From NCBI RefSeq assembly GCF_019880305.1, contig NZ_CP082301.1, forward strand, positions 2,232,001 to 2,296,000: a stretch of 64,000 nt of DNA, given 5' to 3'. This DNA comes from Streptomyces decoyicus. Lineage in GTDB: Bacteria; Actinomycetota; Actinomycetes; Streptomycetales; Streptomycetaceae. The position numbers were made by a program, and so were the translations under genes. The first letter of the stretch is position 1; each line of letters starts with the position of its first letter. A model generated the notes under the pieces. The model had not been told where the DNA came from and searched no databases. It was given only the letters and a program-made list of their open reading frames with translations. Of this stretch, positions 12,336 to 41,825 are shown piece by piece.

Positions 12336-12458
12336 TCTCTGCGTCCTCCGCTCTGTGGTGGATCGGCTCCGTCACCAGGGGCCTTGGATCCACTCGGCCT
12401 GCCCGCTTTTTGCGGGAATGACCATATTTTGTGCTGTGGTCCGACTTGCTTGGCGACG

Positions 12459-13939: not shown

Positions 13940-13952
13940 TTCGGTGCTTCGG

Positions 13953-16277: not shown

Positions 16278-16299
16278 GCTCCCTGCCTTCTCTCGTGCG

Positions 16300-17391: not shown

Positions 17392-17397
17392 CGAAAT

Positions 17398-18744
17398 TCA
17401 CCGCTCTCCGGACGGCCGCTTCTTGACGCGCCGTCTCATCGTCTTCCATCTCACCCCAGCCGGTTTTCTTCCGAAAACCGGCTTCCGCGTGGCCAACGCC
17501 GCCAACGCCGCCCGTGCAGCGGGCTCGTCACGCGCGAAGGCGATCAGCAGCCCGATGGCGAACATCGTCGGCAGCAGGGCGGAGCCTCCGTAGGAGAACA
17601 GCGGGAGCGGGACACCGGCGATCGGCAACAGGCCGAGCACCGCACCGATGTTGATCACGGCCTGGGCCGTGATCCAGGTGGTCACACCTCCCGCGGCGTA
17701 CCGTACGAAGGGGTCCTCCGTGCGTCCGGCCACGCGGATACCCGCATAGCCTAGAGCCGCGAAGAGGGCGAGCACCGACAGCGTCCCCGCCAGACCCAGT
17801 TCCTCCCCGGTGATGGCGAAGATGAAGTCGGTGTGCGGTTCAGGGAGTTCTCCCCATTTTTCCATACTCGCACCGAGGCCGGAACCGAAGAATCCGCCGG
17901 ACGCCAGAGCATAGATGCCGTGCACGGCCTGCCAGCACTGGTCGCCGGGGCCCGGATCGGTCGCACCGATGCAGGCCAGCCGGGACATCCGGTTCGCGCT
18001 GGTCTTGATCAGCAGCGCCCCGATCAGCGCGGCGCTGCCCAGCACCCCGACGAACAGCCGGGTCGGCGCACCCGCCAGCCACAGCAGCCCGAAGAGGATC
18101 GCCGTGAGAATGATCGCGGTGCCCATGTCGCCGCCGAGCATGATCAGCCCGAGCAGCAGGAACGCCACCGGGATCAGCGGCACCAGCAGGTGCTTCCACT
18201 GCACCAGCAGCCGTTTGTCCTGTTTGCGGGCCAGCAGATCGGCGCCCCACAGCACCAGCGCGAGCTTGGCGACCTCGCTCGGCTGCATCTGGAAGGGGCC
18301 GCCGAGGTTGATCCAGTTCTGGTTGCCGTTGACCGCGACCCCTATGCCCGGAATCTGCACCAGGCACATCAGGAACACCGAGGCGGCGAGCAGCGGATAG
18401 GCCAGCCCGCGGTGCAGCCGCACCGTCATCCGGGAGGCGGCCAGCAGCAGCCCGCCGCCGAGGACGGCGGCGAGCAGTTGCTTGCGGAAGAAGTACGTCG
18501 GGGCCAGACCGGACTGGAGCGCCTTGATCTGGGACGCCGAGTAGACCATCACCAGCCCCAGGACGGTGATCAGCAGGCTGCCGCCGAGGATCAGGTAGTA
18601 CGCGGTCAGCGGGCGGTCCCAGGCCCGTTTCAGCCGGGTGTGGAGCCCCCGGGGGCCGACCGGTGTGCGGCCCCCGCCCGACCCTCGCCCCGTGGACGGC
18701 CGACGCGGACGCGCCGGGGCCGCCTTCGCCGATCGGGCCGTCAT
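17398..18744 (-). CDS. ftsW: FtsW, SEDS peptidoglycan polymerase
   Basis: A 448-residue SEDS-family membrane protein that polymerises lipid II at the septum with its partner PBP. About ten hydrophobic helices occupy residues 50-420. Signature stretches include MQPSEVAKLALVLWGADLLA, FAITGEELGLAG and the C-terminal GVPLPLFSYGGSALL. A basic, Arg/Pro-rich cytoplasmic head (1-40) and a basic tail are present. The ATG at 18744 follows GGAGGGG at a normal distance; a GTG five codons earlier overlaps that ribosome site. It is 60 bp after murD and 6 bp before murG. Confidence 0.96.
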   Translation of the reverse strand: MTARSAKAAPARPRRPSTGRGSGGGRTPVGPRGLHTRLKRAWDRPLTAYYLILGGSLLITVLGLVMVYSASQIKALQSGLAPTYFFRKQLLAAVLGGGLLLAASRMTVRLHRGLAYPLLAASVFLMCLVQIPGIGVAVNGNQNWINLGGPFQMQPSEVAKLALVLWGADLLARKQDKRLLVQWKHLLVPLIPVAFLLLGLIMLGGDMGTAIILTAILFGLLWLAGAPTRLFVGVLGSAALIGALLIKTSANRMSRLACIGATDPGPGDQCWQAVHGIYALASGGFFGSGLGASMEKWGELPEPHTDFIFAITGEELGLAGTLSVLALFAALGYAGIRVAGRTEDPFVRYAAGGVTTWITAQAVINIGAVLGLLPIAGVPLPLFSYGGSALLPTMFAIGLLIAFARDEPAARAALAALATRKPVFGRKPAGVRWKTMRRRVKKRPSGER

Positions 18745-18804
18745 CCTCGTCCCCTCCACAGGTACGCTCGCCGCCGGCTGACGACGACAGCGGGGAGAAA
18801 CGGT

Positions 18805-20271
18805 CTAGTGATCCCGTGCGGTCAGCTCACCGACCGCGTCGGCGAAGGCCTCGCCCCGCTTGTTGTAATTGACGAACATGTCCATCGAGGCACAGGCCGG
18901 AGCCAGCAGGACGGTGTCGCCGGGCTCGGCCAGGCGGGTCGCTTCCCGGACCGCCTCAGGCATCGCCCCAGTGTCGGTCCGGTCGAGGTCGACCACCGGG
19001 ACATCGGGGGCGTGTCGCGCCAGGGCTTCGCGAATCAGCGCCCGATCGGCACCGATCAGCACCACACCGCGCAGCCGGGCCGCCGACTTCTGCACCAGCT
19101 CGTCGAAGGTCGCGCCCTTGGCGAGTCCGCCGGCGATCCACACGATGTGCTCGTACGCCGCCAACGACGCCTCGGCGGCGTGGGTGTTGGTGGCCTTGGA
19201 GTCGTCGATGTAGGTGACGCCCCCGAGGTCCGCGATGTGCTGGATGCGGTGGGCCTCCGGGTGGAAGGCACGCAGTCCGTCGCGTACGGCGGCGGGACGG
19301 ACCCCGAAGGCACGGGCCAGCGCCGCCGCCGCGAGGGCGTTGGCGATGTTGTGCGGGGCGGGGGTCCCGGAGCCGGGCGCGATGTCGGAGACCTCGGCGA
19401 GCTCCTGGGCCTGCTGCTGGCGGTTCTCCACGAAGGCACGGTCGACGAGGATGCCCTCGACGACGCCGAGTTGGGAGGGGCCGGGCGTCCCGAGGGTGAA
19501 GCCGATGGCGCGGCAGCCCTCTTCGACGTCGGCCGCCCGCACCAGGTCCTCGGTCGCCTTGTCGGCCACGTTGTAGACGCAGGCGACGGTGTTGCCCTCG
19601 TAGATCCGGCCCTTGTCGGCGGCGTACGCCTGCATGGAGCCGTGCCAGTCGAGGTGGTCGGGGGCGAGGTTGAGGACCGCGGCGGAGTGGGCGCGCAGCG
19701 AGGGCGCCCAGTGCAGCTGGTAGCTGGAGAGCTCGACGGCGAGCACGTCGTAGGGGCGCTCGCCGTCCTTGCCCTGGCCGAGGACGACATCGATGATCGG
19801 GGTGCCGATGTTGCCGACGGCCGTGGTGTGCAGCCCTTCGGCGGCCAGGATCGAGGCCAGCATCCGCACCGTGGTGGTCTTGCCGTTGGTGCCGGTGACC
19901 CCGAGCCAGGCGGCTGCCGGTTGTCCCGAGGGGGCTTCCCGCAGCCGCCAGGCGATCTCGACATCGCCGACCACGTCCACCCCGGCCGCGGCGGCCGCCG
20001 CGAACAGCGGGCTGTCCGGCTTCCAGCCGGGCGAGGTGACGACGAGGTCCGTGCCCGCGGGAAGGGTCGCGCCGTCGCCGAGGCGGACGGTGATCCCTTC
20101 CGCTTCCAGCTCACGCGCGGCGGCCTGCTGCTTCTCGCTGTCGCCGCCGTCCACGACGGTGACGTGGGCGCCGAGGCCGGCCAGCGCGCGAGCGGCACTG
20201 ATGCCGCTCACGCCCAGGCCGGCGACGGTGATGTGCTGACCGGCGAAGTCCGCCGGGCTCGGGGTGGTCAC
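18805..20271 (-). CDS. murD: MurD, UDP-MurNAc-L-Ala:D-Glu ligase
   Basis: A 488-residue ATP-dependent ligase adding D-glutamate to UDP-MurNAc-L-alanine. The Rossmann-like N-terminal UDP-binding domain starts [17 protein letters not shown]. The Mur ligase P-loop is [16 protein letters not shown] and the C-terminal domain contains [14 protein letters not shown] at 20271 is chosen because it overlaps the mraY stop as GTGA (20268-20271), giving translational coupling; an in-frame extension into mraY has no ribosome site. Confidence 0.96.
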
Positions 20272-21341
20272 TTGGCCGCCTGCCAGCCGCCGTAGAAGAT
20301 GCCGAGTCCGACGATCACGCACATGCCCTGGATGATCCAGAATCTGACCACCACAAGGACTTCCGACCACCCCTTGAGTTCGAAGTGGTGCTGGAGTGGC
20401 GCCATCCGGAAGACCCGCTTACCGGTGAGCCGGAACGAGCCGACCTGGATGACCACGGACATGGTGATCAGGACGAAGAGACCGCCGAGGATGGCCAGCA
20501 GCAGCTCCGTACGGGAGCAGATGGCCAGACCGGCCAGCGCGCCGCCCAGGGCCAGCGAACCGGTGTCCCCCATGAAGATCTTGGCGGGCGAGGTGTTCCA
20601 CCACAGGAAGCCGAAGCAGGCGCCCATCAGTGCCGAGGCGACGACGGCGAGGTCGAGTGGATCGCGGACCTCGTAACAGCCCGGTCCCGCGGTGATCTGG
20701 TTGGCGCACGACTCCTGGTGCTGCCAGATGCCGATGAACGTGTACGCGCCGAAGACCATCACCGAGGCGCCGGTGGCCAGGCCGTCGAGGCCGTCGGTGA
20801 GGTTCACGCCGTTGGACATCGCCAGGATCATGAACAGCGCCCAGATCACAAAGATCACCGGGCCGATCTGCCAGCCGAAGTCCTGGGTGAAGGAGAGCCG
20901 GTCGGAGGCCGGGGTCTGTCCTCGCAGGTCGGCGAACTGGAGCGACAGCACCGCGAAGGCGATACCGACGATCAGCTGGCCGGCCATCTTGGCCTTGGCC
21001 CGCAGGCCCAGCGAACGCTGCTTGACGATCTTGATGTAGTCGTCGAGGAAGCCGACCAGGCCCATGCCCGCCATCAGGAACAGCACCAGCACACCGGAGA
21101 AGGTGGGGTCGCTGCTCGTGATGACCTTGGTCAGCACATAGGCGATGATCGTGGCCAGGATGAAGGCGATACCACCCATGGTGGGCGTACCGCGCTTGCT
21201 GTGGTGATCACGCGGGCCGTCATCACGGATGAACTGCCCGTATCCCTTTTTGGCCAGCAGCTTGATCAGCACCGGAGTGCCGATCAAGGTCAGGAAGAGC
21301 CCGATCATTCCGGAGAAGAGGATCTGCTTCATCGAGTTCAT
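20268..21341 (-). CDS. mraY: MraY, phospho-MurNAc-pentapeptide translocase
   Basis: A 357-residue polytopic membrane enzyme. It transfers phospho-MurNAc-pentapeptide to undecaprenyl phosphate, forming lipid I. About ten transmembrane helices are present. The catalytic loops are DDYIKI (about 107), [12 protein letters not shown] (about 197) and [12 protein letters not shown] (about 270), plus the HHFELKGW His motif near the C-terminus. It overlaps murF by four bases (ATGA, 21338-21341) and murD by four (20268-20271), a tightly coupled murF-mraY-murD run. Confidence 0.97.
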
Positions 21342-22771
21342 CGGGACGCGGCTCCGCCCTGGAGGCCCGCGTCGTCCAGCAATGCTGCGGCAACCCGCTC
21401 CAGCCCCACCGACCTGGACGCCTTCACCAGCACGACGTCTCCCGGTTGCAGCTCGCTGCGCAACAGGTCGACCGCCGCCCGCGCGTCGGACACGTGCACC
21501 GACTCCTCACCCCACGAACCCTCGTTCTTGGCGCCCATGTCGAGCCAGGCCGCTTCCCTGCCGCCGACTGCCACGAGCTTGCTGACGTTGAGCCGGACGA
21601 CCAGCCGCCCGACCGCGTCGTGTTCGGCGAGCGACTCCTCGCCGAGCTCGGCCATCTCACCGAGCACCGCCCACGTACGACCGCCCTCCGCCTTGGCGGC
21701 TGCGCCCATGGCGACCAGCGCTCGCAGCGCCGCTCGCATGGACTCGGGGTTCGCGTTGTAGGCGTCGTTGACGACCCTCACGCCGTCCGCGCGCTCGGTG
21801 ACCTCCATACGCCAGCGGGAGAGCGTGCCGGCTTCGGAGAGCGCGGTGGCGATCTCGTCTGCGGGCATGCCCAACTCATGGGCGACGGCGGCCGCGGCGA
21901 GCGCGTTCGACACGTGGTGCTCACCGTACAGCCGCATGGTCACATCACTGCACCCGGAGGGTGTGTGAAGCGTGAAGGCAGGCTGTCCCAGCTCCGTGAG
22001 CCGGACATTCTCGGCACGTACGGCGGCGTCCTCGGCCTCACCGAACAGCAGTGTGCGGGCCTTTGTGCGGGGAACCATGGCGCGCACGTACGGGTCGTCG
22101 GCGTTGAGCACCGCCACCCCGCCGTCCTCGGCCGGGGGCAACTCCTCGATGAGTTCGCCCTTTGCCAGGGCGATCTGCTCGCGGCCGCCGAACTCTCCGA
22201 TGTGCGCGCTGCCGACGTTCAGCACCACACCGATGCTCGGCGGGGTCAGCCCGGCGAGGTAGCGGATGTGGCCGACGCCGCGGGCACCCATCTCCAGGAC
22301 GAGATGGCGGGTGGTTTCGTCGGCGCGCAGCGCGGTCAGCGGCAGCCCGATCTCGTTGTTGAGGTTGCCCTCCGGCCAGACCGTCGGGCCTTTGCGCTGC
22401 AACAGCTGGGCGATCAGGTCCTTGGTGCTGGTCTTGCCGGCCGAGCCGGTGAGACCGACGACGGTGGTGCCCAGACGTCCGACGACGGCGCGGGCGAGCG
22501 CGCCGAGCGCGGCGATCACGTCGTCGACGACGATCGCGGGGACGCCGATGGGGCGGGCGGCCAGTACGGCGACCGCGCCTGCCTCGACGGCGCCGGACGC
22601 GAAGTCGTGGCCGTCGGCACGTTCACCGGCGAAGGCCACGAACAGGGCGCCGGGGCGCACCGCGCGGGAGTCCGCCACGACCGGTCCGGTCACCCGGCGG
22701 CCGTCGTCCGGTATGTCGTGCTGCCGGCCGCCGACGATGCTCGCGATCTCGGCGAGGGACAGGGAGATCAC
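21338..22771 (-). CDS. murF: MurF, UDP-MurNAc-tripeptide D-Ala-D-Ala ligase
   Basis: A 477-residue Mur ligase adding D-Ala-D-Ala to the UDP-MurNAc-tripeptide. The N-terminal substrate domain begins [16 protein letters not shown]. The P-loop is [16 protein letters not shown] (about 105-120), and the central Mur ligase signature [16 protein letters not shown] and the C-terminal [15 protein letters not shown] are typical MurF motifs. It starts 62 bp after murE and its stop overlaps the mraY start. Confidence 0.96.
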
Positions 22772-22833
22772 AGGTCACCCCCGGTGAGGGGCGGGCGGTG
22801 ACGGTGCAAGGGTTGTGCGCGCATGGCGGTGTG

Positions 22834-24597
22834 TCATCCCTGGTGGTTCGGCTGCGGTGACTGCTGCGACTGCTGTGACTTCAGCGAGTCCTCGATGGCA
22901 TCGCGCAGCACCTGGCGGTCGTCGAAGGGGCGTACCACTCCGGCGATGTCCTGGCCCTGCTCGTGGCCCTTGCCCGCGACGATCACGGTGTCGCCCGGCT
23001 CGGCGCGGGCGACGGCGGCGGCGATGGCGACGGCCCGCTCTTCTTCGACCAGCACCGTGCCGCGTTCATGGATGGGGACTTCCGCGGCACCCGCGAGCAT
23101 GGTGGCGAGGATCGAGAGCGGGTCCTCGTTGCGGGGGTTGTCGGAGGTCAGGATGGCCGTGTCGGCGAGCCGGGCCACCGCGGCACCCATGGGGAGGCGC
23201 TTGTGCGGGTCGCGGTCGCCGCCGCAGCCGAGGACGGCGTGCAGCTTGCCGTCGGTGACCTTGCGCAGCGCGCGCAGAACCGATTCGACGGCGTCGGTCT
23301 TGTGGGCGTAGTCGACGACCGCCAGGTAGGGCTGGCCGGCGTCGATGCGCTCCAGGCGGCCGGGGACGCCGGGCACCGCTGCGACACCGTCGGCCGCGGT
23401 CTGCGGGTCGATGCCGGCGACGACCAGCGAGACGATCGCGGCGAGCGAGTTGGCGACGTTGAACGGGCCGGCGATCGGCGAGGCGGCGCGCAGGGTCCGG
23501 CCGTCCGGGCCGTGCACGGTGAAGGTCGAGCCGAGCCTGCCGACCTCGACGTCGGACGCCCGCCAGTCGGCGTCCGGGTGGCCCTCCGCGGAGAAGGTGG
23601 TGACCGGGACCTCGGACTCGCCCTCGGCCAGCCGCTTGCCGTACTCGTCGTCGAGGTTGACGACGCCGGCCCGGCTGCGGGCCTTGGTGAACAGCTGGGC
23701 CTTGGCCTGGAAGTAGTCCTCCATGCCGGAGTGGAACTCCATGTGCTCCGGGCTGAGGTTGTTGAAGATCGCGACGTCGAAGACGCAGCCGTCGACCCGG
23801 CCGAGGACCAGTGCGTGGCTGGAGACCTCCATGGCGAGGGCGCGGACGCCGCGCTCGCGCATCACGGCGAACAGCGCCTGGAGGTCGGTGGCCTCGGGGG
23901 TGGTGCGCTCGGACTTGATGCGCTCGTCGCCGATGCGGGTCTCGACGGTGCCGATCAGACCGGTCAGTCCCCCGTCGGGGCGCTTCGCGGCAGCCGCCCG
24001 CAGCCCGCCCTCGATGAGGTAGGCGGTGGTGGTCTTGCCGGAGGTGCCGGTGATGCCGATCTGGAGGAGGTCCTCGCCCGGCGCTCCGTAGATCGAGACG
24101 GCCAGGGCGCCCATCCGGGCGCGCGGGTTCTCCACGACCAGGACCGGCAGGCCGGTCGCCACGGCGCGCTCGGCGCCCGACGGGTCGGTCAGGATCGCCG
24201 AGGCGCCGAGGTCGGCGGCCTGGGCGACGAAGTCGGCGCCGTGCAGACGGGCGCCGGGCAGCGCGGCATAGACATCACCGGGACGGACCGCACGGGAGTC
24301 ATGGGTGATGCCGGTGACCATGGCATCGGCATGGGCGGCGTCCGGGGCCGGACTTCCCAGCTGCTCGGCCAGGTCCGCCAGGGGGGTGGGGCGGACCGTT
24401 TCAGGGCGCGGGGCTCCCGGATATGTGCCGGGCCCGCCCTTCTCGGCGTGCTGGGCTTTCGGGGACTGATCAGCGTGTGACACGGCGGTGAGCGTACCGG
24501 GCACAACCGGCCCGGGGCGAAGCGAGGGCCGCGGGGGGGAGCAGTTTCCCGGAGTGGGGGTGCCGTCGGGGGTGCCGTCGGGAGTGATGGTCGTCAC
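22834..24597 (-). CDS. murE: MurE, UDP-MurNAc-L-Ala-D-Glu:diaminopimelate ligase
   Basis: A 587-residue ligase adding diaminopimelate (LL-DAP in Streptomyces) to UDP-MurNAc-dipeptide. The P-loop is IGITGTSGKTTTAYL. The acceptor-specific motif SDNPRNEDP is the DNPR signature of DAP-adding MurE enzymes. The N-terminal 75 residues are Pro/Thr/Gly-rich and not part of the fold. The GTG at 24597 (after TCGAGG) gives the longest form; a later GTG (VSHADQSPK) is a possible alternative. It is 18 bp from ftsI and 62 bp from murF. Confidence 0.94.
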   Translation of the reverse strand: MTTITPDGTPDGTPTPGNCSPPRPSLRPGPVVPGTLTAVSHADQSPKAQHAEKGGPGTYPGAPRPETVRPTPLADLAEQLGSPAPDAAHADAMVTGITHDSRAVRPGDVYAALPGARLHGADFVAQAADLGASAILTDPSGAERAVATGLPVLVVENPRARMGALAVSIYGAPGEDLLQIGITGTSGKTTTAYLIEGGLRAAAAKRPDGGLTGLIGTVETRIGDERIKSERTTPEATDLQALFAVMRERGVRALAMEVSSHALVLGRVDGCVFDVAIFNNLSPEHMEFHSGMEDYFQAKAQLFTKARSRAGVVNLDDEYGKRLAEGESEVPVTTFSAEGHPDADWRASDVEVGRLGSTFTVHGPDGRTLRAASPIAGPFNVANSLAAIVSLVVAGIDPQTAADGVAAVPGVPGRLERIDAGQPYLAVVDYAHKTDAVESVLRALRKVTDGKLHAVLGCGGDRDPHKRLPMGAAVARLADTAILTSDNPRNEDPLSILATMLAGAAEVPIHERGTVLVEEERAVAIAAAVARAEPGDTVIVAGKGHEQGQDIAGVVRPFDDRQVLRDAIEDSLKSQQSQQSPQPNHQG

Positions 24598-24615
24598 GGC
24601 GGAATTGCCTCGATT

Positions 24616-26613
24616 TCATTGGCCTGGCGTGAAGGTGACCGGCAGCCGCGGGGGTTTGGCGCCGGTCGGCGGGACCTGGAGGGTTTTCAGCGCGAAGGCC
24701 ATGACCTGCTGGTAGATCGGGCCACAGACCTGCCCGCCGAAGTAGCTGCCCGTAGTGGGGTTCTGCACGGCGCAGTAGACCGTGATGCGGGGCTTGTCGG
24801 CGGGCGCGAAGCCGGCGAAGGACGCGGTGTAGCCGTGGTACCGGCCGGTTTTGGGGTCCACCCGGTTGGACGTGCCGGTCTTGCCGCCGACGCGGTATCC
24901 GTCGATCTTCGCCTTGGCTCCGGTGCCTTCCTCGTCGTCGACCACCGATTCGAGCATGGTGGCGAGCGTGGTCGCGGTCCTGCTGCTGACCACGCGGTTC
25001 CTGTCGGGCTTGGGCGCCGGTCGGTAGTGGCCGTCGGGCCCGGTGCTGCCACGGACCAGCGAGGGGGCGATGCGCTCGCCGCCGTTGGCGATCGTGGAGT
25101 AGACGGAGGCGGCCTGTACGGCGTTGAGGGAGAGCCCCTGGCCGAACGGGATGGTGAACTGCTGCGAGGTGTTCCAGTCCTGCGGCTTGGCCAGGATGCC
25201 GTCGGTCTCCCCCGGGAAGCCGAGCCCCGTGGGATTCCCGATGCCGAATTTGCGCAGATACGAGTAGAGGACCTGGTTGGCCTCGGGCTGGGTCTTGCCG
25301 AGCTGGCCGGCGGCGAGGATCGTGCCGATGTTGCTGGACTTGGCGAGCACGCCGTTGAGCGTGAGGTGCCAGGTCTCGTGGTCGACGTCGTCCGCGAACA
25401 GCCGGTCGCCGCGGTGCAGCCGGTTGGGGACGGTGACGTGGGTGGACGACGTGGCTACGCCTTCCTCCAGGACGGCGGCCAGCGACATCAGCTTGCTGGT
25501 GGACCCCGGCTCGAAGGCGTCGGACAGCGCGGCGTTGCCCAGCGCCTCCGGATCGGCCTTCGAGACCTCATTGGGGTCGAACCCGGGCGCGTTGGCGAGC
25601 GCCAGGATCTCCCCGGTGCGGGTGTCCTGGACGACGACGTAGCCGCGGTCGGCCCCGGACTTGGCGACCTGCTTGGTGATGGCCTGCTGAGCGGCCCACT
25701 GGATGTCGCGGTCGAGGGTCAGCTCGACCTTGCTGCCGGGGACGGCGGGGTGTTCCTGGGTGTCGGCGGTGGGTACCCGGCGGCCGCCGGACTGGGCGTA
25801 GACGAGCTTGCCGTCCTTGCCCGCCAGCTGCTTGTTCAAGAGCGCCTCCAGGCCGCCGCCGCCCTTCCCCGCGCCGTTGACGAAGCCGAGGACGCCGGAG
25901 GCGAGGTCCTGGTTCGGGTAGAGGCGCTTGCTGTGCTTGTCGGCGAAGATGCCGACCAGGACGTTGGGGCGGGGCGCGCTCTTGGGGGCGGCGGCCGCCC
26001 GGTCGTCGAGGGTCTTGCGCAGGTCCTTGATCCGCTTCCAGACCTGCGGGGTCCGCTGCCGGGCGAGCAGGACGTAGCGCGCCTTGGGCTGGTCGAGCTT
26101 CTCGGTGAGGGTGGCCTTGTCCTCGCCGAGGACCGGGGCGAGCAGCGCGGCGGCCCGCCGCGGAGCGTCGTCGATCCTGGTCTTGGCGGGCGCCAGCAGG
26201 CTCGGGTCGGCGGTGATGTCGTACGCGTCGACGGTGGTGGCGAGGTCCACGCCGTTGCGGTCGGTGATCGCGCCGCGCTCGGCGGCCAGCTTGACCGGTA
26301 CATAGCGGTTCTCGTTGGCCTTGGCGGCGAAGGCCCCGGCGTCCACGGCCTGCACCTGGAAGAGCCGTACGACGAAGACGAGCATGATCAGCGTCAGCCC
26401 CAGGGAGACCAGCCGCAGCCGGGGGCGCGGGCTGCCGAGGCGGAGCGCCTGCGGTCCCCCGGAGCGGGGGCGGGCGGCGGGGCGGCGGGCCTGGGGCTTG
26501 GGGCCCGGCCGGGGCGCGGGGCGCTTGGCGGGCGGGCGGCCGGCGCGGCTGCCGGCCTGGCCGCCGCGCTGGGCAGGGCGCGGCACCCGGCGAGGGTCCC
26601 TGGGCTCGGTCAT
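24616..26613 (-). CDS. ftsI: Class B penicillin-binding protein, FtsI/PBP2 type
   Basis: A 665-residue septal transpeptidase. A roughly 65-residue Pro/Arg-rich cytoplasmic head precedes one transmembrane helix (LVSLGLTLIMLVFVVRLFQVQ, about 67-88), then the dimerisation domain beginning AAERGAITDRNGVDLA. The transpeptidase active-site motifs follow: SxxK in EPGSTSKLMSL, SxN in AKSSNIG and KTG in VGGKTGTSNR. It lies between ftsL (7 bp) and murE (18 bp) and is expected to work with FtsW. Confidence 0.97.
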   Translation of the reverse strand: MTEPRDPRRVPRPAQRGGQAGSRAGRPPAKRPAPRPGPKPQARRPAARPRSGGPQALRLGSPRPRLRLVSLGLTLIMLVFVVRLFQVQAVDAGAFAAKANENRYVPVKLAAERGAITDRNGVDLATTVDAYDITADPSLLAPAKTRIDDAPRRAAALLAPVLGEDKATLTEKLDQPKARYVLLARQRTPQVWKRIKDLRKTLDDRAAAAPKSAPRPNVLVGIFADKHSKRLYPNQDLASGVLGFVNGAGKGGGGLEALLNKQLAGKDGKLVYAQSGGRRVPTADTQEHPAVPGSKVELTLDRDIQWAAQQAITKQVAKSGADRGYVVVQDTRTGEILALANAPGFDPNEVSKADPEALGNAALSDAFEPGSTSKLMSLAAVLEEGVATSSTHVTVPNRLHRGDRLFADDVDHETWHLTLNGVLAKSSNIGTILAAGQLGKTQPEANQVLYSYLRKFGIGNPTGLGFPGETDGILAKPQDWNTSQQFTIPFGQGLSLNAVQAASVYSTIANGGERIAPSLVRGSTGPDGHYRPAPKPDRNRVVSSRTATTLATMLESVVDDEEGTGAKAKIDGYRVGGKTGTSNRVDPKTGRYHGYTASFAGFAPADKPRITVYCAVQNPTTGSYFGGQVCGPIYQQVMAFALKTLQVPPTGAKPPRLPVTFTPGQ

Positions 26614-26620
26614 GCCGCGA

Positions 26621-27292
26621 TCACCTGCCGGAGGTCGTCGGGGAGAGGGCGGCCGCGGCGCCGGGCGCGGGTGCGGGAGCAGGGGAAGCGTCGCTGCCGG
26701 ACGCGACCAGGGAGACCGGGGCGGCCGACGGCGGTGGGGCGAGGGCGCCGGGTGCCGGCGCCGCGCTGTCCGGGCCCGGCGCGCCGGCAGCGGCCGGCAC
26801 CGGCTGCCGGACGGCCGGCGGCTCGACCGGCGGCGCCTGCGGGCGGGGCGGGGCGGACGGGGCGGTGCGGCCGGTCGCGCCCAGGAGCGACGGCTCGGCG
26901 GAGGTGCTCAGCGGCGCCCCCTCCGACGTGGCCGCGCTGGTCCGGCCGCGGACCGTGCCGTCCGGGAGCAGGAACGCCGGGCTGCCGCCGGGCACCATCC
27001 CCAGCCGGCGGGCCCGCCGCTCCAGCGCGCCCGGGGCGGAGTACGCGTCCACGTCCTGTTGCAGCGCCTGCTGCTCGTCCGTCAGCTCGTCGGTCTTCTT
27101 CTCCAGCTTGCTGAGTTCGAACGAGCCTTGGTTGAGGGCGGAGTTGAGCAGCAGCAGGGTGATCAGGCCGGAACCGAGCAGGACGACGATGAGGAGCACG
27201 AAGGGGGTGCGCGCCGCGGTGCCGCCGGCGCCGGAGGGGAGCAGCGCGGCAAGGCGTTTCTGCCTGCCGCGCGGCCTCCCCTGGCCTCTCAC
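26621..27292 (-). CDS. ftsL: FtsL-like septum formation protein
   Basis: A 223-residue bitopic protein in the ftsL position of the cluster. A basic N-terminus is followed by a transmembrane helix ([23 protein letters not shown], about 30-52) and a short coiled coil ([26 protein letters not shown], about 54-80) with the typical [19 protein letters not shown] ending. Residues 115-223 are a Pro/Ala/Ser-rich tail, much longer than classical FtsL (about 120 residues). It overlaps rsmH by four bases (27289-27292). FtsL assignment rests on topology and position because the family has little sequence identity. Confidence 0.88.
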
Positions 27293-28257
27293 GCGGTGTC
27301 CTCGACGTTCTCGCGGATGCGCTCCGCGCCGCGCAGCCGGGCGGGGGCGGCGCGGCGGTTCTCGGCGACCTCCTCCTCCGTGGGGAGTTCGGCGCCGCGG
27401 GTCAGCAGCTTGAGCCGGGGCTGGTAGCGCTCGGGGACGACCGGCAGCCCGGCCGGCGCCGTATTGGCCGCTCCTGCCGCGAAGACCTGCTTGACCAGGC
27501 GGTCCTCCAGCGACTGGTAGGAGAGCACGGCGATCCGGCCGCCCACCGCGAGGGCCTTCACGGCGGCCGGAACGGCGCGCTCGACGCTCGCCAGCTCACC
27601 GTTGACCTCAATGCGCAGGGCCTGGAACGTGCGCTTGGCGGGGTTGCCGCCGGTGCGCTTGGCGGCCTGCGGCAGCGCGTCACGGATCAGCTCGACCAGC
27701 CGTGCGCTGTTGGTGAACGGTTCCTTGGCGCGCTCGCGTACGACGGCCTCGACGATCCGCTTGGCCTGCTTCTCCTCACCGTAGGAGCGCAGGATCCGGA
27801 CCAGCTCACCGGGCGCGTAGGTATTGAGGACGTCCGCGGCGCTGATGCCGGTCGTCTGGTCCATCCTCATGTCCAGCGGGGCGTCCTGCGCGTACGCGAA
27901 GCCGCGGTCGGCCTCGTCCAGCTGCATGGAGGAGACGCCGAGGTCGAACAGGACGCCCTGGACGCGCGGGGTCCCGAGCCGGTCGAGGACCTCGGGGAGC
28001 TCGTCGTAGACGGCGTGCACCAGGGTGGCGCGGTCGCCGTACGGGGCGAGCCGTTCGCCCGCGAGCTTCAGGGCGGACGGGTCACGGTCGAGGGCGATGA
28101 GCCGGGCCGCCGGGAAGGTGGAGAGGAGTGCCTCGCTGTGCCCTCCGAGGCCGAGCGTGCAGTCGACGACGACCGCGCCCGGCTCGGCGAGAGCGGGGGC
28201 GAGCATGTCCAGACACCGCTGGAGCATGACGGGTACGTGGCGAGTGTTGTTGGTCAT
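27289..28257 (-). CDS. rsmH: 16S rRNA m4C1402 methyltransferase RsmH (MraW)
   Basis: A 322-residue SAM-dependent methyltransferase acting on N4 of C1402 in 16S rRNA. It opens with [13 protein letters not shown] and the SAM loop [38 protein letters not shown] and the C-terminal [14 protein letters not shown] are MraW signatures. The ATG at 28257 is preferred over an in-frame extension to 28305 because homologues begin MTxxxRHVPVM. It is the first gene of the dcw unit; the promoter lies about 300 bp upstream. Confidence 0.96.
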
Positions 28258-28762
28258 GCGACGGCCCCGCTGCGCTCGGCCCGCCTGCCGGCGCCACGCG
28301 CGCACCGCTTCCTGAATCGCTCGCTACGCTCGCTCATGTGCCTTCCGATGGGCTGGGCGGCAGGTGGGTCCCCGGCCGCTGGCTGGGGGATGCCGCACGT
28401 ACCGCTTGGTCCCCGCCCGCTCTGAAGGGGAAGTGGCCCTCCGGCGACGGGGAAGTGACGTCGGAAGACCATGGGAGCGGGAGGAGGCCGAGCCGTACGT
28501 ACGACGCGCGCACGCGAGGAATCCGGTATCCAAGGAGAGCGTCACGCCTCCCACTTCGCGCCACTTTAGTCCACCGGGTGCCCCGGTCAATCAACCGGTT
28601 CCGCGCGTCCTGCGACGGCTTTCGCGCCGCCTTTCCCACGGGCTTCTCACCCGGACGGCGGCGACACGGACGGCCCTGTGGATTACCTCACAACGAGTGA
28701 CGTTGACCCCTATGCCCGACCTCTCCCGCAGCCGAAACGGCCGATGCCGATTACCGTGAATC
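28258..28762 (-). promoter_or_regulatory. dcw cluster upstream region with MraZ-box-like repeats
   Basis: About 500 bp without a gene. On the minus strand a good promoter is TTGACC (28585-28590), a 16-bp spacer and TAAAGT (28563-28568). Two direct repeats, AAAGTGG (28561-28567) and AAGTGGG (28550-28556), lie exactly 10 bp apart over the -10 and expected start. This matches the (A)AGTGG, 10-bp-phased layout of MraZ operators. GGGGAAGTG also occurs twice, at 28427-28435 and 28449-28457, on the plus strand. No mraZ is encoded here. The leader to rsmH would be about 300 nt. Confidence 0.65.
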
Positions 28763-35638: not shown

Positions 35639-36394
35639 TCAGTCGCGCTCGGCGAGGACATGCAGCTGAGTGGCCACGGAGTGGAAGGCGGGCTGTTCCG
35701 CGGCGGCCGCCTCGAGCTTCAGCAGGGCTTCCATGGCGCCCGGCTCGGTGTCGACCAGCACACCGGGGACGAGGTCGGCGAAGACCCGTACGCCGTGCAC
35801 CGCGCCGACCTGCAGTCCGGTGGCGGACACCAGCTCCGCGAGCTGGTCGGCGGTGAACCGGCGCGGCATCGGGTCGCCCTCGCCCCAGCGCCCGGCCGGG
35901 TCCGTGAGGGCGTGGTGGGCCTCGGTGAAGTGGCCCGCGAGGGCGCGGGCGAGGACGGCGCCGCCCAGACCGGCCGCGAGCAGGCTGAGGGTGCCGGCCG
36001 GGCGCAGCGCCTCGACGGCGTTGCGGACGCCCTCGGCCGGGTCGTCGACGTACTCCAGGACGCCGTGGCAGAGCACGGTGTCGTAGCCGCCGCGCTCGAC
36101 GACGTCGAACAGGCCGTGGGCGTCGCCCTGGACCGCGCGTACCCGGTCGGCGACGCCCGCCTCCGCGGCGCGACGCTCCAAGGCGAAGAGGGCGTTGGGG
36201 CTGGGGTCGACGACCGTGACGCGATGGCCGAGGCGGGCGACCGGCACGGCGAAGTTGCCGGTGCCGCCGCCGGTGTCGAGGACGTCCAGGGTGTCGCGGC
36301 CGGCGGCCTTGACCCGGCGCTCCAGGGCGTCCTTGAGGACGTCCCAGACCACGGCGGTACGAAGGGATGCGCGCGGGCGCAGCGGGTCAGACAC
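35639..36394 (-). CDS. Class I SAM-dependent methyltransferase
   Basis: A 251-residue Rossmann methyltransferase. Motif I is VLDTGGGTGNFAVPVA (about 38-53), motif II VTVVDPSPNAL, and the post-motif region GGYDTVLCHGVLEYVDDP leads to a SmtA/UbiE-like C-terminal half. The substrate is unknown. The GTG start at 36394 follows GAGGAG. It lies downstream of the repeat tract at 36552-36870, which would be in its upstream region. Confidence 0.88.
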   Translation of the reverse strand: MSDPLRPRASLRTAVVWDVLKDALERRVKAAGRDTLDVLDTGGGTGNFAVPVARLGHRVTVVDPSPNALFALERRAAEAGVADRVRAVQGDAHGLFDVVERGGYDTVLCHGVLEYVDDPAEGVRNAVEALRPAGTLSLLAAGLGGAVLARALAGHFTEAHHALTDPAGRWGEGDPMPRRFTADQLAELVSATGLQVGAVHGVRVFADLVPGVLVDTEPGAMEALLKLEAAAAEQPAFHSVATQLHVLAERD

Positions 36395-37169: not shown

Positions 37170-37655
37170 TTATCCCGCCCGCTGTGGCGGCAACGACGGC
37201 TGGAGGAGCAGCATCCGCTCCACCAGGCGCAGGAACATGGCGGCGTCGCGCAGAAGGTCGTCGGCGTCCCTGCGGCAGGCCGCGCCGGCTATGCCGGCTT
37301 CGGCCTTGGCCCGGCGGGCGGCGCCGGCGGCGAACAGGGCGCTCCACTCGGCGAGTTCGGGCGCGACCTCGGGGAGGACCTCCCAGGCGCTGCGGATACG
37401 CTGCCTACGGCGCACGGTGGCCTCCGGACGGCCGCGCACGGCGAGGACGGCGGCGGCGGTGCGCAGCGCGGCCAGATGTGCCGTGGCGAACTGTTCGTTG
37501 GGGGTTTCCAGGGTCTGTGCTTCGTCGAGGCCCTGCTGGGCCTGGGCGAGCAGGGCGAGGGCGGCGGGTGGTGCGGCCGCCCGTCGCAGGACGGGGTGGA
37601 CATCGCTCGGGGGACCGTACGCAGCGGAGCTGCCCCCACCGGGACGAGCTGCCAT
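37170..37655 (-). CDS. SAV_6107-family HEPN domain protein
   Basis: A 161-residue, largely helical protein matching the Streptomyces SAV_6107 HEPN family. It opens MAARPGGGSSAAYGPPSDVHPVLRRAA and has helices around LALLAQAQQGLDEAQ, TAHLAALRTAAAVLAV and RRDADDLLRDAAMFLRLVERML. HEPN domains often bind nucleotides or act as RNases, but the RxxxxH nuclease motif is not visible here, so nuclease activity is not claimed. The ATG at 37655 has AGGAGG 7 bases upstream; a longer in-frame extension runs into the divergent promoter region. It is transcribed away from the ABC-like gene. Confidence 0.85.
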   Translation of the reverse strand: MAARPGGGSSAAYGPPSDVHPVLRRAAAPPAALALLAQAQQGLDEAQTLETPNEQFATAHLAALRTAAAVLAVRGRPEATVRRRQRIRSAWEVLPEVAPELAEWSALFAAGAARRAKAEAGIAGAACRRDADDLLRDAAMFLRLVERMLLLQPSLPPQRAG

Positions 37656-37856
37656 GACGAACCTCCTGTCGTCGCATGCTGGTTCGGGACCGAATGCCGA
37701 TTCGGGACCGTATGACCCCATCGTGACGTACACCACTGACAATCGGCACTGACCTGCACTTTCGTCGAAAAGGGGACGCACCCTCAGGCGGATTCGCCGG
37801 ATGGGCTCCCAACACCCCCTTGCGGAATGGGGGGTGGGATACCGCATACTTTTTGC

Positions 37857-37870
37857 ACTGACCAGTCAGT
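37857..37870. promoter_or_regulatory. Palindromic operator upstream of the ABC-like/YhgE operon
   Basis: ACTGACCAGTCAGT is a perfect palindrome (6-bp arms, CA centre). It lies between a CATACT -10-like hexamer (37845-37850) and the AAGGAGGG ribosome site of the next gene. ACTGAC half-sites also occur at 37735-37740 and 37748-37753. The site is a likely target of the TetR regulator encoded at the end of the same gene group, which is inference. Confidence 0.6.
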
Positions 37871-37883
37871 TCAAGGAGGGATC

Positions 37884-38894
37884 GTGGACAGCACCCCGCA
37901 CGGGGCGGCGGTCACGGCCGCGGGATTCGGGGTCAAGGGCCCCCGCGGGTGGGCATTCCGGAACATCGACCTCAGCGCCGGGCCCGGCTCGCTGATCGCC
38001 GTACAGGGCCCTTCGGGCTCGGGCCGTACGTGTCTGCTGCTCGCGCTCACCGGCCGGATGAAGTCCGCCGCGGGCACCGCCGAGGTCGGCGGACTGCCAC
38101 TGCCGAAGAAGAGGGCCGCGGTCCGTTCCGTCACCGCGCTCGCCCATGTGCCGGGGGTCGCCGAGCTCGATCCCGCCCTCACCGTGGGCGAGCATCTGCG
38201 TGAACGTGCCCTGCTACAGGGCCGGTTCGGCGGTTCGCTGCGTGCGCTGCTGCGGCCGCGGCGCGAGCGCCGGGCCGAGGCCCGCGCCCTGGTGGATGCC
38301 GCGCTCACGGCGGGCGGCCTCGACCTGGAGTCGCTGCCCAAGGGGATCCGCACGTCCGTCCGCGACCTGGAACGGCTGGAGGCGCTGCGGCTTTCCGTGG
38401 CGCTCGCGCTGATCGGCGGCCCCCGGCTGCTGGCCGTCGACGACACCGATCTGAAGCTGTCCGACGACGAGCGCGCCGGGGCCTGGGCGATGCTGCGCGC
38501 CCTGGCGGCGGCCGGCACCACCGTGCTCGCGGTGTGCAGCGAGCCGCCGCAGGACGGCGAGGGCGTGGTGCTGGTGCGTACCGGTGGCCGTCGGGAGGCG
38601 GACGCCCCTAAGAGCGCGCCCGGCGACTCCCCCGCCACCACGGGCACCACGGACACCGCGGCCGGCACGACCGACGGGAACAGCGGGAACAGCAGGGACG
38701 ACGGGGACAGCGAGAGTCCCACGGCCGGCGCGGACAGCGCGGCCGGCGGGGGCCCCGCGGCCGGCAACGCCAGCGACGACCCCGCAAACAGCAAGGCCGG
38801 CGAAGACCCCGCGGACAGCGAGCACGACGAGCAGGACGGGACCGACGACGAGGAGGGGGCGGCCGATGCGCTCGCCGAAGCTGGCCGCTCTTGA
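37884..38894 (+). CDS. Degenerate ABC ATPase-like protein with acidic tail
   Basis: A 336-residue protein with an ABC nucleotide-binding-domain fold (residues 10-235). Its Walker A is GPSGSGRT (42-49) with Arg for the invariant Lys. The LSGGQ signature is missing (TSVRDLERLEALRL instead). Walker B reads RLLAVDD (181-187) with Asp for the catalytic Glu, and the H-loop His is absent (VCSE, 217-220). Residues 240-336 are a low-complexity Asp/Glu/Ser/Gly/Ala tail. All ATPase motifs are thus impaired, suggesting a structural or nucleotide-sensing partner. GTG at 37884 follows AAGGAGGG. It overlaps the YhgE/Pip gene by 29 bp. Confidence 0.85.
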   Translation: MDSTPHGAAVTAAGFGVKGPRGWAFRNIDLSAGPGSLIAVQGPSGSGRTCLLLALTGRMKSAAGTAEVGGLPLPKKRAAVRSVTALAHVPGVAELDPALTVGEHLRERALLQGRFGGSLRALLRPRRERRAEARALVDAALTAGGLDLESLPKGIRTSVRDLERLEALRLSVALALIGGPRLLAVDDTDLKLSDDERAGAWAMLRALAAAGTTVLAVCSEPPQDGEGVVLVRTGGRREADAPKSAPGDSPATTGTTDTAAGTTDGNSGNSRDDGDSESPTAGADSAAGGGPAAGNASDDPANSKAGEDPADSEHDEQDGTDDEEGAADALAEAGRS

Positions 38895-41073
38895 GCTGAA
38901 GCGGTTCGGGCGGGGGAAGCTGCCGCGCGCCGCGCTGGCCGCACTTCTGCTGCTGCCGCTGCTGTACGGCGCGCTGTACCTGTGGTCCTTCTGGGACCCG
39001 TACGGGCGGCTGGACAAGATCCCGGTCGCGCTGGTCAACGAGGACACCGGCGCGACCGTCGGCGGGAAGCACCTCGCGGCCGGCGGCAGCATCGTCTCCG
39101 GGCTGCGCGACAGCCACACCTTCGACTGGCAGCCCGTGGACGCCGAGAAGGCCGCCAAGGGCGTCGAGGACGGCTCGTACTACCTCTCGCTGTCCATCCC
39201 GAAGGACTTCAGCCGGCGGATCGCCTCCAGCTCCGGGGACCACCCGGAGACCGGCGCCCTCAAGGTGCGGACGAACGACGCGAACAACTACATCGTCGGG
39301 CAGATCTCCCGGACGGTGTTCTCCGAGGTGCGCTCCGCGGCCTCCACGAAGTCGTCGCGGACCTTCCTGGACAAGATCTTCGTCTCGTTCTCGACGCTGC
39401 ACGGCAGGACCGAGCAGGCCGCGGACGGCGCCGACCAGCTCAACGACGGTATCGGGCAGGCGAAGGACGGCGCGGGCAAACTGGCCGACGGTCTGGGCAC
39501 CGCCAAGGACGGCAGCGGCAAGCTGGTGACGGGCCTGGGCGATCTCGACGCGGGCGCGGGGCGGCTCTCCCAAGGCAGCTCCGACCTCGCCAGGGGAGCC
39601 GGTACGGCGGCACATGGCTCGCGCCAACTGGCCGACGGTTCCGGGCAGGTGGCGCAGGGAACCCAGCAGCTGGCGGACACGGTCAACGGAGTCGTCGGCA
39701 AGGTGGGGCCCTTCATCCGGGCGCACGGCAAGGAGATCGGCGAGGCGGCACAGCTCGTCGCCGACGGTTCGCAGGCGGTCAGTGACCACCTCGACAAGCT
39801 CCCCGCCGCGGCGTCCACGGGGGCCGAACTCTCCCGGGGGATGTCCGACCATCTGGCCGCCTACTACCGGCTGCGCTGTGGGAGCGCGGTGGAACTCGAC
39901 GCCTCCTGCGCGGAGCTGAAGCAGCTCAAGGAGCAGGCGGCCACCGCCGCGGACAAGGCCGAGGAGGTCAGCGGCTACGTCCACGACCAGAAGAACCTCG
40001 ACCAACTGGGACGGGACCTGGACACGCTGCACTCGCTGGCGGGCGAGCTGGCCGAGCGCGGGCCGACCCTGGGCGCCGACATGGACGCCGCCGTCAAGAA
40101 GATCAACGGTCTCAACGACGGCGCGCACAAGGTGTCCGCGGGGGCGCGCAAGCTGGCCGCGGGCAATGCCCGGCTGGCGGCCGGTGCGGACAAGCTCAAC
40201 GACGGCACGCATGCGCTGCACGACGGTACGGGCCGCGCGGCAGCCGGTATGGGCGACCTCGACTCCGGTGTGGGCAGGCTCAAGGACGGCGCGCAGACGC
40301 TGGACGGCGGCATGTTCAAGCTCTCCGACGGCTCGCAGAAGCTGGCCGGCGGACTGCACGACGGGGCGAAGCAGATCCCCGACTACGGCAAGAAGGCCCG
40401 CGACGCGCGCACCCAGGTCATGTCCGACCCGGTGCAGCTGGCCTCGTCCGCCGCCCACAAGGCGCCGAACTACGGCACCGGCTTCGCCCCGTACTTCATC
40501 CCGCTGTCCCTGTGGGTCGGCGCGATGGTGGCGTACATGCTGATCCAGCCGCTCAACCGGCGGGCACTGGCGATGGGTGCGTCCTCCTGGCGGGTGGCGG
40601 TCTCCGGGTGGCTGCCGGTGTTCGGTGTGGGGGTGCTGCAGACCGCGGCCCTGATGTCCGTATTGCACTTCGCGATCGGCCTGGAGATGGTCCGGGCGGC
40701 CGGCACGGTCGGCTTCCTCGTCCTGGTCACGGCGTGTTTCTCGGCGATCGTGCAATGGCTGAACGCGCAGTTCGGCCCGGCCGGCCGGATCCTGGTGCTG
40801 GCGCTGCTGATGCTCCAGCTGACCTCGGCCGGCGGCACCTACCCGGTGCAGACCAGCCCGGGGTTCTTCGCCGCCATCCACCCCTACCTGCCGATGAGTT
40901 ACATCGTGGAGGGGCTGCGCCGGCTCATCACGGGCGGGGAACTCGCGCCCGTATGGCAGGGCAGTGTGGTGCTGCTGGCGTTCACGGCGGTGGCGCTCGC
41001 GCTGACGTCCCTGACGGCGCGCGGCCGCCAGGTGGTGCGGATGAAGGACCTTCATCCGGAGCTGAGCCTGTGA
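38866..41073 (+). CDS. YhgE/Pip domain ABC-2-type membrane protein
   Basis: A 735-residue membrane protein of the YhgE/Pip (phage infection protein) family. One transmembrane helix near the N-terminus (about 18-42) precedes an extracytoplasmic region with IPVALVNEDTGA and many DG-x-x-x-L repeats (GADQLNDGIGQAKDGAGKLADG and similar). Five C-terminal transmembrane helices end the protein (about 540-720). Relatives act in phage susceptibility, protein secretion or lipid export; function here is unknown. The ATG at 38866, inside the preceding gene, follows GAGGAGGGGG. The overlap with the ABC-like gene implies a complex between the two products. Confidence 0.9.
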   Translation: MRSPKLAALELKRFGRGKLPRAALAALLLLPLLYGALYLWSFWDPYGRLDKIPVALVNEDTGATVGGKHLAAGGSIVSGLRDSHTFDWQPVDAEKAAKGVEDGSYYLSLSIPKDFSRRIASSSGDHPETGALKVRTNDANNYIVGQISRTVFSEVRSAASTKSSRTFLDKIFVSFSTLHGRTEQAADGADQLNDGIGQAKDGAGKLADGLGTAKDGSGKLVTGLGDLDAGAGRLSQGSSDLARGAGTAAHGSRQLADGSGQVAQGTQQLADTVNGVVGKVGPFIRAHGKEIGEAAQLVADGSQAVSDHLDKLPAAASTGAELSRGMSDHLAAYYRLRCGSAVELDASCAELKQLKEQAATAADKAEEVSGYVHDQKNLDQLGRDLDTLHSLAGELAERGPTLGADMDAAVKKINGLNDGAHKVSAGARKLAAGNARLAAGADKLNDGTHALHDGTGRAAAGMGDLDSGVGRLKDGAQTLDGGMFKLSDGSQKLAGGLHDGAKQIPDYGKKARDARTQVMSDPVQLASSAAHKAPNYGTGFAPYFIPLSLWVGAMVAYMLIQPLNRRALAMGASSWRVAVSGWLPVFGVGVLQTAALMSVLHFAIGLEMVRAAGTVGFLVLVTACFSAIVQWLNAQFGPAGRILVLALLMLQLTSAGGTYPVQTSPGFFAAIHPYLPMSYIVEGLRRLITGGELAPVWQGSVVLLAFTAVALALTSLTARGRQVVRMKDLHPELSL

Positions 41074-41081
41074 GCGCGCAC

Positions 41082-41113
41082 CCTCCCCCAGCTACCGCTG
41101 GGAGGTGCCCCCA
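41082..41113 (+). repeat. CTCCCCC-family palindromic repeat, copy 1 before tetR
   Basis: CCTCCCCCAGCTACCGCTGG continues into GAGGTGCCCCCA, a hairpin flanked by C-runs, 9 bp after the YhgE/Pip stop. It shares CCTCCCCC and GGGAGGTGCCCCCA with the copy inside trpEG at 58548-58590. Confidence 0.75.
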
Positions 41114-41135
41114 GCCCACCACCGCCCTGCCGGAG

Positions 41136-41169
41136 ACTCCCCCGGACTCCGTCCGGGGCAACCCCCACC
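41136..41169 (+). repeat. CTCCCCC-family palindromic repeat, copy 2 before tetR
   Basis: ACTCCCCCGGACTCCGTCCG continues into GGGCAACCCCCACC. It has the same plan as the preceding copy with a different loop, 42 bp upstream of the tetR start. Confidence 0.7.
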
Positions 41170-41210
41170 GCGCCGCGCATCGATCGCCGGGGACCGGCAC
41201 AATCGCCCCC

Positions 41211-41825
41211 ATGGACAGCTCCAACACACGCCGCGACGCCACCCGGCGCAAGCTCTTCGAGGCCGCGGTCACGCTCATCGCCGAACAGGGCTTCTCCTCC
41301 ACCACGGTGGACGAGATCGCCGAGCGGGCAGGCGTCGCGAAGGGCACCGTCTACTACAACTTCGCGAGCAAGAACGTTCTCTTCGAAGAGCTGCTGCGGC
41401 ACGGCATCGAGATGCTGGCGACCTCCTTGCAGGCGGCCGCCGAGGAGGTCATCGGACGGGGCGGCCGCAGGATCGACGCGCTGGACGCGATGATCCGGGC
41501 CGGGCTGGACTTCATCTCCCGTTACCCGGCGCTCACCCAGCTCTACGTCGCCGAGCTGTGGCGCACCAACCGTGCCTGGCAGTCGACGCTGATGGTGGTG
41601 CGCGAGCGGGCCATCACGGTGGTGGAGGACGTGCTGCGCGAGGCGGTGGCGGAGGGCGAGCTGAGCGAGGAGATCGACATCCCGCTGACCGCCTCGGCGC
41701 TGTTCGGAATGGTCCTGGTGGCCGCCCTGGACTGGCAGTCCTACCAGCCGGACCGGTCGATCGACGATGTCCACGCGGCGCTGTCGCGGCTGCTCCAGGG
41801 GCGGGTCAGCGGCCGGCCGTCGTAG
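41211..41825 (+). CDS. TetR/AcrR family transcriptional regulator
   Basis: A 204-residue repressor. The N-terminal helix-turn-helix is RRKLFEAAVTLIAEQGFSSTTVDEIAERAGVAKGTVYYNFASKNVLFEELL (about 10-62). The C-terminal ligand-binding helices match the TetR_C branch (ALDAMIRAGLDFISRYPALTQLYVAELW). ATG at 41211 has no strong ribosome site, so the start is set by domain length. It follows the ABC-like/YhgE pair with 137 bp holding two palindromic repeats and probably regulates them through the palindrome at 37857-37870. Confidence 0.92.
   Translation: MDSSNTRRDATRRKLFEAAVTLIAEQGFSSTTVDEIAERAGVAKGTVYYNFASKNVLFEELLRHGIEMLATSLQAAAEEVIGRGGRRIDALDAMIRAGLDFISRYPALTQLYVAELWRTNRAWQSTLMVVRERAITVVEDVLREAVAEGELSEEIDIPLTASALFGMVLVAALDWQSYQPDRSIDDVHAALSRLLQGRVSGRPS

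Follow-up and report, generated by a model that had tools for sequence, protein, structure and literature searches.

What can an ABC-like subunit do for the cell once it has none of the catalytic motifs of an ATPase? This question is raised by a three-gene unit in a 64,000-nucleotide stretch of the Streptomyces decoyicus genome (the window), in which a degenerate ABC-like gene is followed by genes for a YhgE/Pip membrane protein and a TetR-family regulator (Table 1). Proteins of the YhgE/Pip family are phage receptors, little understood and related to EsaA/YueB, and degenerate ABC sites are usually studied next to a working one. The original prediction, made from the DNA sequence, was that a pseudo-ATPase locked to a large envelope protein could form a structural or sensing complex rather than a transporter.

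Layout and genomic setting of the unit

The 29-bp overlap of the ABC-like gene with yhgE, the length of 735 residues for the YhgE/Pip protein and the position of the TetR gene after yhgE had all been read correctly from the sequence.

Table 1. The unit and its conserved neighbours, in window coordinates
Feature	Position	Strand	Remarks
Palindrome ACTGAC-CA-GTCAGT, putative TetR operator	37857..37870	.	Two 6-nt arms, 2-nt centre
ABC-like pseudo-nucleotide-binding domain (pseudo-NBD), 336 aa	37884..38894	+	GTG start, GGAGG immediately 5'; PF00005
Walker A region GPSGSGRTC, residues 42-50	38007..38033	+	Arg48 where Lys is expected
Acidic low-complexity C-terminal tail, residue 235 to stop	38586..38894	+	D/E vs K/R count; low pLDDT
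YhgE/Pip membrane protein, 735 aa	38866..41073	+	TIGR03061, TIGR03062, TIGR03057, PF12698
TetR-family regulator, 204 aa	41211..41825	+	PF00440
Divergent conserved neighbour	37170..37847	-	Homologue in 92/100 same-genus loci
Conserved neighbour, methyltransferase-like by sequence reading	35639..36394	-	Homologue in 92/100 same-genus loci

The divergent neighbour is presumably SAV_6107/HEPN-like. A hairpin-like element lies between yhgE and tetR (window 41087-41114), and the genome contains two further exact copies of its 23-nt core. The dcw cell-division/wall cluster (window 10188-28305), in which DivIVA, FtsZ, MurG, FtsW, MraY, FtsI and RsmH were recognised by sequence reading, precedes the unit at a distance of about 9.6 kb. 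Of 14 chosen same-genus genomes, all but G012 have 8.2-9.6 kb between the unit and rsmH, and the corresponding distance is 9.0-20.5 kb in all three chosen genomes from other genera of the same family; outside the family, the two are unlinked, on another contig or more than 500 kb away on the same contig, in all 12 chosen genomes. A linkage that is local to the family says little on function, so that a functional tie of the unit to the dcw cluster was rejected. The same genome encodes a second ABC-YhgE-TetR unit (L038, G000:C1:3019257-3031757; 61% identity of the ABC-like proteins), which carries the operator form ACTGACCAGTCAGA, and a third copy that is a diverged ABC-YhgE pair without TetR (L039, G000:C1:8157198-8169698). 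Second units are also found in four other genomes of the same-genus sample (G064, G090, G048 and G036).

The ABC-like protein retains the fold and has lost the catalytic motifs

The ABC-like protein is recognised by the PF00005 profile (39.6 bits, cut-off 25) and departs from the canonical motifs at every catalytic landmark. Its Walker A motif reads GPSGSGRT, with Arg48 in place of the Lys of the GxxGxGK[ST] pattern, the Q-loop Gln is replaced by Gly91, the catalytic Glu after Walker B by Asp187 and the H-loop His by Ser219; in an alignment with ABCA7, LERLE stands opposite the signature LSGGM, and DDTDLKLS opposite DEPTAGVD. The losses of the Walker A Lys, the LSGGQ signature, the Walker B Glu and the H-loop His had all been read from the sequence, and the loss of the Q-loop Gln adds to them.

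The AlphaFold model predicts an ABC fold with a helical subdomain. In this model, 193 residues have a pLDDT of at least 90, residues 8-235 are mostly of high confidence, and pLDDT is low from about residue 240 onward, with the tail appearing disordered. Alignment of the predicted model with VIA-align gives Z 22.8 for 4yer_B (rmsd 2.6 over 208 residues) and Z 21.5 for FtsE (6z4w), the latter being also the top Foldseek match (6.3e-14). FtsE has been solved in complexes with ADP and AMPPNP, according to the structure titles, whereas the protein described here has lost the catalytic motifs. The acidic tail, estimated in the original prediction at about 95 residues, is real in its composition (25 Asp/Glu against 6 Lys/Arg over the final 102 residues), but it varies in length between 9 and 129 residues, with a median of 43.5 in 100 same-genus copies (L039 excluded); it was thus rejected as a conserved part of the protein. 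Conservation of the last residues of the tail may stem from yhgE because these residues are encoded within the yhgE overlap.

The losses are conserved across the genus

Such losses could reflect ordinary decay, restricted to this one strain, of a transporter subunit, and taken alone, the motif losses speak for it. The same-genus sample consisted of 121 genomes, 100 of which contain a homologue (E 1e-15); after setting aside fragments and contig edges in five genomes (G003, G017, G099, G116 and G119), 100 loci from 95 genomes, including five second units and L039, were read together with the window copy, for a total of 101 copies. All 101 have Arg at position 48, encoded by three codons (CGC in 61, CGT in 22 and CGG in 18), which indicates that the residue, not the DNA, is conserved. 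Apart from this position, the P-loop does not vary in the genus, with Thr49 in 100 copies and Ser in one. Patterns resembling LSGGQ or a Glu-type Walker B are found in none of the 101 copies; Asp161, Asp186 and Asp187 are invariant, Gly91 is present in 100, and Glu163, at the position of the signature Ser, in 95. Position 219 is more variable, with Ser in 79 copies; six different residues cover this position in all 101, and His is not one of them; the diverged L039 has a His one position off the H-loop place. Among 80 named loci, of which 79 are titled Streptomyces, 78 have GPSGSGRT and two GPSGTGRT, and the signature pattern is absent from all 80.

Identical losses in all 101 copies, the Walker A and signature losses in all 80 named loci, the open frames, the synteny and the constraint (median dN/dS of 0.34 over 60 random same-genus pairs) leave strain-specific decay with hardly any credence, and the comparison with more distant rows, described below, refutes it as well.

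An old actinobacterial family

Searches at larger phylogenetic scales, each with same-genus genomes included, gave matches in 51 of 61 genomes of the family sample (E 1e-10) and in 64 of 296 genomes of the class sample (E 1e-12), the weakest of which include ordinary ABC proteins. Sixty more distant loci were fetched, and these yielded 58 readable rows linked to YhgE (L213 counts twice, and L201, with the gene in another frame, was dropped); two of the loci, L244 and L246, serve as controls that lack YhgE and keep both the Walker A Lys and the DEP motif. In the 58 linked rows, the Walker A position is occupied by Arg in 51 and by Lys in seven, and the Q-loop Gln is present in one. The catalytic Glu is found in none of 49 readable rows and the H-loop His in none of 43; of the two signature Gly residues, the second is present in 0 and the first in 1 of 52 rows, and the signature Ser is kept in 18 of 52. 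Beyond these rows, a locus outside the class (L346) keeps the Lys, with none of the other motifs seen, genes upstream of YhgE in three loci (L350, L391 and L393) have His for the Walker A Lys, and six more (L352, L382, L384, L387, L392 and L403) match the ABC-like profile without a recognisable P-loop; a Pfam scan of the L352 product found no family.

In a quick tree, which was accompanied by long-branch warnings and includes the long branch of L201 as well as L351 cut to its last 205 residues, 82 linked rows are separated from five canonical ABC proteins with an SH-aLRT of 99, and the Lys, Arg and other states at the Walker A position require four changes. The simplest reading of this distribution is that the signature, the Glu and the His would have been lost first, and that the replacement of Lys by Arg came later. 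The orthologue comparison proposed in the original prediction has thus been carried out, and neither the 101 same-genus copies nor the 58 distant rows contain a homologue beside YhgE whose motifs are intact. Because the motif losses and the linkage to YhgE extend across the genus and the distant loci, the ABC-like protein belongs, as judged by sequence comparison, to an old actinobacterial family of dedicated pseudo-NBDs rather than to the products of decay in one strain.

A tight tie to YhgE/Pip

The membrane protein itself is a typical member of its family, scoring 191.3 bits against TIGR03061 (cut-off 96.15) and 231.1 bits against TIGR03062 (cut-off 102.2); it also matches PF12698, ABC2_membrane_3 (E 3.9e-30). 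The family models and the LxxG repeats are those of Lactococcus Pip, Enterococcus faecalis EF0858 and Bacillus subtilis YhgE. The N-terminal domain is related to that of EsaA/YueB of type VIIb secretion; the score against TIGR03929, 55.5 bits, is well under the cut-off of 122 bits, and membership in EsaA was rejected. The 'dozens' of DG repeats in the original prediction came down to 15 DG dipeptides (mean of 5.9 and maximum of 14 in 1000 shuffles), and these were dismissed as a special feature, the recurring unit being the known LxxG type (25 LxxG, matched by TIGR03057). A role in anti-phage defence was likewise rejected, with weak PADLOC matches only (E 7e-5 to 5e-4).

The structural model of YhgE is poor (mean pLDDT 61, pTM 0.38), and therefore its topology is drawn from hydropathy and family knowledge. 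Hydrophobic stretches at residues 19-43, 540-563, 577-661 and 692-720 would be compatible with six transmembrane segments and a large ectodomain following the first of them, and the best 60 of 166 matches in a PDB profile search are mostly coiled-coil or helical proteins. The PIP protein of E. faecalis is described as having six transmembrane segments, the first two of which flank a large extracellular domain (PMC4999554). The term 'ABC' does not appear in the main text of that article, whereas here the gene for a pseudo-NBD precedes yhgE. The match to PF12698, together with the YhgE/Pip models, makes the pair resemble an ABC-2 exporter whose motor is devoid of the catalytic residues. In this it is similar to ABC-2 exporters and FtsE/FtsX, with the ABC fold, best matched by FtsE, on one side and ABC2_membrane_3 within YhgE on the other.

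The association of the two genes is close to invariable. YhgE/Pip adjoins the ABC-like gene in all 100 same-genus loci and in 58 of the 60 distant loci, and the overlap is exactly 29 nt in 96 of the 101 same-genus copies. The two genes are also lost together: 20 of the 21 same-genus genomes without the ABC-like gene were examined, and none of these encodes a YhgE of the usual identity, 16 having no YhgE match, three an N-terminal match of 32-33% only, and one (G010) a YhgE of 38-40% identity that has a pseudo-NBD fragment, in part masked by N, in front of it. A search of 197 class genomes started from YhgE found it at 60 places, distributed over 46 of the genomes; a pseudo-NBD lies upstream at 57 of these places (the exceptions being L394, L395 and L404), a count that is partly circular because the profile contained some of the same rows. 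The case for a pseudo-ATPase tied to YhgE is thus well supported by motif loss and linkage in same-genus and distant loci alike. Duplicated arrangements also occur, namely ABC-YhgE-TetR-ABC-YhgE in L213 and YhgE-TetR-ABC-YhgE in L230.

Outside the class, a pseudo-NBD lies within 1.5 kb upstream at one of 15 YhgE loci. YhgE loci without a pseudo-NBD imply that YhgE can act alone, which fits an accessory role of the partner. In genomes outside the class, YhgE genes often form neighbouring pairs without an ABC-like gene (G520, G619, G484, G639 and others; L360, L363-L365), which are perhaps heterodimers. A literature search covering titles and the beginnings of abstracts, mostly outside subscription journals, returned nothing on an ABC-like partner of YhgE/Pip.

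A probable operator of the linked TetR gene

The regulator has a TetR_N DNA-binding domain (PF00440, 64.4 bits, cut-off 24), and a TetR homologue is present in 99 of 100 same-genus loci. The palindrome in front of the unit, originally called perfect, does have two perfect 6-nt arms, but these are separated by a 2-nt CA centre, so that it is not gapless; it has no other match in the window, with 0 expected from 100 shuffles. The core TGACNNGTCA is found no more than 120 nt upstream of the ABC-like start in 97 of the 101 same-genus copies, the exceptions being L039, L077, L088 and L130. The 60 distant loci fall into two equal sets according to whether a TetR of this type (profile score above 150 bits) is linked: the palindrome is present in 27 of the 30 that have one and in three of the 30 that do not, the latter set including the controls L244 and L246; in two of these three, the contig ends before a TetR gene could show. 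TetR without the palindrome is seen in L216, L219 and L230. Because the palindrome tracks the linked TetR gene, it is probably the operator of this TetR, which would then be autoregulated through it.

In the genome as a whole, ACTGACNNGTCAGW occurs in five places, compared with one for the backward control. Two palindromes are CA-centred, one in front of the unit at 2.27 Mb and one in front of the second unit at 3.02 Mb; three others have the same arms and other centres (G000:C1:241994, GC; 695264, GC; 8328476, AG).

Scaffold, exporter or a part of a proton-driven machine

Degenerate ABC sites are compatible with activity. Passages of PMC7756269 describe a degenerate site in ABCG5/G8 with the Walker A Lys-to-Arg replacement and changes in the signature, a Pdr5 site with all four motifs changed that works beside a canonical one, and, more generally, Lys-to-Arg and Glu-to-Asp replacements in degenerate sites of working transporters. 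By that account, Pdr5 and ABCG5/G8 keep a canonical second site, whereas the unit described here has a single NBD gene that has lost the signature as well. There is no sign of a heterodimer with a canonical partner NBD within the unit: a pattern search for ORFs with canonical Walker A, signature and Walker B motifs was negative in all 100 same-genus loci, and among the 60 distant loci, it detected only the control L246 and L205, where the ORF is on the other strand.

The unit could nevertheless be an active exporter with unusual chemistry, whose ABC-like subunit either continues to bind ATP and hydrolyse it slowly or takes as its partner a canonical ATPase that could be encoded elsewhere in the genome. 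The frequency of degenerate sites in working ABC transporters (PMC7756269, in the passages cited above) is compatible with this, as are the otherwise invariant P-loop with its nearly universal Thr49 and universal Asp186 in the genus, and the canonical ORF near the L205 unit. However, without the signature, the subunit could not complete the site of a partner as is usual in ABC transporters, the same-genus loci contain no canonical pattern, and the P-loop itself has been lost in other lineages, so that we regard an ATP-driven exporter as quite unlikely.

The fairly likely reading, in our assessment of the sequence evidence, is that the unit encodes a TetR-controlled, ABC-2-like envelope module, in which YhgE/Pip is joined by a dedicated, non-hydrolysing pseudo-NBD that would stabilise or gate it from the cytoplasm. 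From conservation, gene neighbourhood and co-loss, motif loss, the predicted ABC fold and the co-occurrence of the operator, we infer that the pseudo-NBD would dock onto a YhgE dimer from the cytoplasmic side, in the manner of an ABC ATPase on its permease, and would act there, without hydrolysing ATP, as a scaffold or an allosteric clamp. The invariance of the remaining P-loop suggests that in Streptomyces the domain perhaps still holds a nucleotide or phosphate. YhgE would project a long, coiled ectodomain beyond the membrane, TetR bound to the palindrome would keep the unit repressed until a ligand related to the envelope or to lipids arrives, and the energy for any movement would be drawn from another source, such as the proton motive force. 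The pseudo-NBD is thus probably a scaffold or a switch rather than a motor; the one distant row with the Q-loop Gln and the 18 rows with the signature Ser are points against it. A subunit that no longer hydrolyses ATP may still take part in transport, so that the complex may be structural or sensing, as originally proposed, or a transporter.

A possible source of energy is suggested by gene fusions. In three families, 12 places have a single frame immediately before YhgE that combines an MMPL domain with a pseudo-NBD downstream of it (f17, one place; f26, four; f36, seven). Five of these fusions are firm (L215, L223, L228, L233 and L234), with Pfam matches to PF03176 (E 1e-83 to 3e-90) and ABC_tran, and keep the Walker A Lys. 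The seven f36 fusions (L396-L402) are weaker and have no recognisable P-loop: in the two frames scanned with Pfam (L398 and L400), MMPL was seen and the ABC domain was not, so that the NBD is assigned by our own profile (39-84 bits), and MMPL in the other five by likeness to these two. The LSGG match in L402 and the DEP match in L396 were rejected because they do not coincide with the positions of the signature and of Walker B in the domain, and the long frame of L240 was rejected as a fusion, with no MMPL match. In Saccharopolyspora hirsuta, a YhgE gene (F1721_04135) and an MMPL gene (F1721_04140) both rise with cholesterol, with values of 3.82 and 3.33, respectively, in Table 2 of PMC9782250. 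The two genes have neighbouring locus tags.

The fused frames in other actinobacteria hint at a link to transport. Taken further, they would make the dead NBD an adaptor between two membrane proteins, so that the ABC-2-like YhgE is driven or gated by a proton-driven MMPL/RND transporter; MMPL and pseudo-NBD would act as a single polypeptide where they are fused, in some actinobacteria, and would meet in trans in Streptomyces. The 12 frames, five of them firm, and the joint cholesterol induction in S. hirsuta (in the table cited above) argue for such a hybrid, but seven of the fusions are of the weaker kind, L240 lacks MMPL, none of the 180 same-genus or named loci scanned contains an MMPL match, no identified MMPL gene carries the operator, and the fusions may be lineage-specific. 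Hence we consider it unlikely, while keeping it in view as a tentative idea next to the preferred non-hydrolysing scaffold.

Implications

The only NBD gene of this unit lacks all catalytic motifs, keeps the same kind of membrane partner class-wide and has lost even the P-loop in places; it thus offers a natural test of the roles of NBDs other than hydrolysis. In actinobacteria, YhgE/Pip gains a dedicated partner, a probable operator and, possibly, a proton-driven partner. If the coupling to MMPL is true, the module would be an ABC-shaped machine of the envelope that has abandoned ATP.
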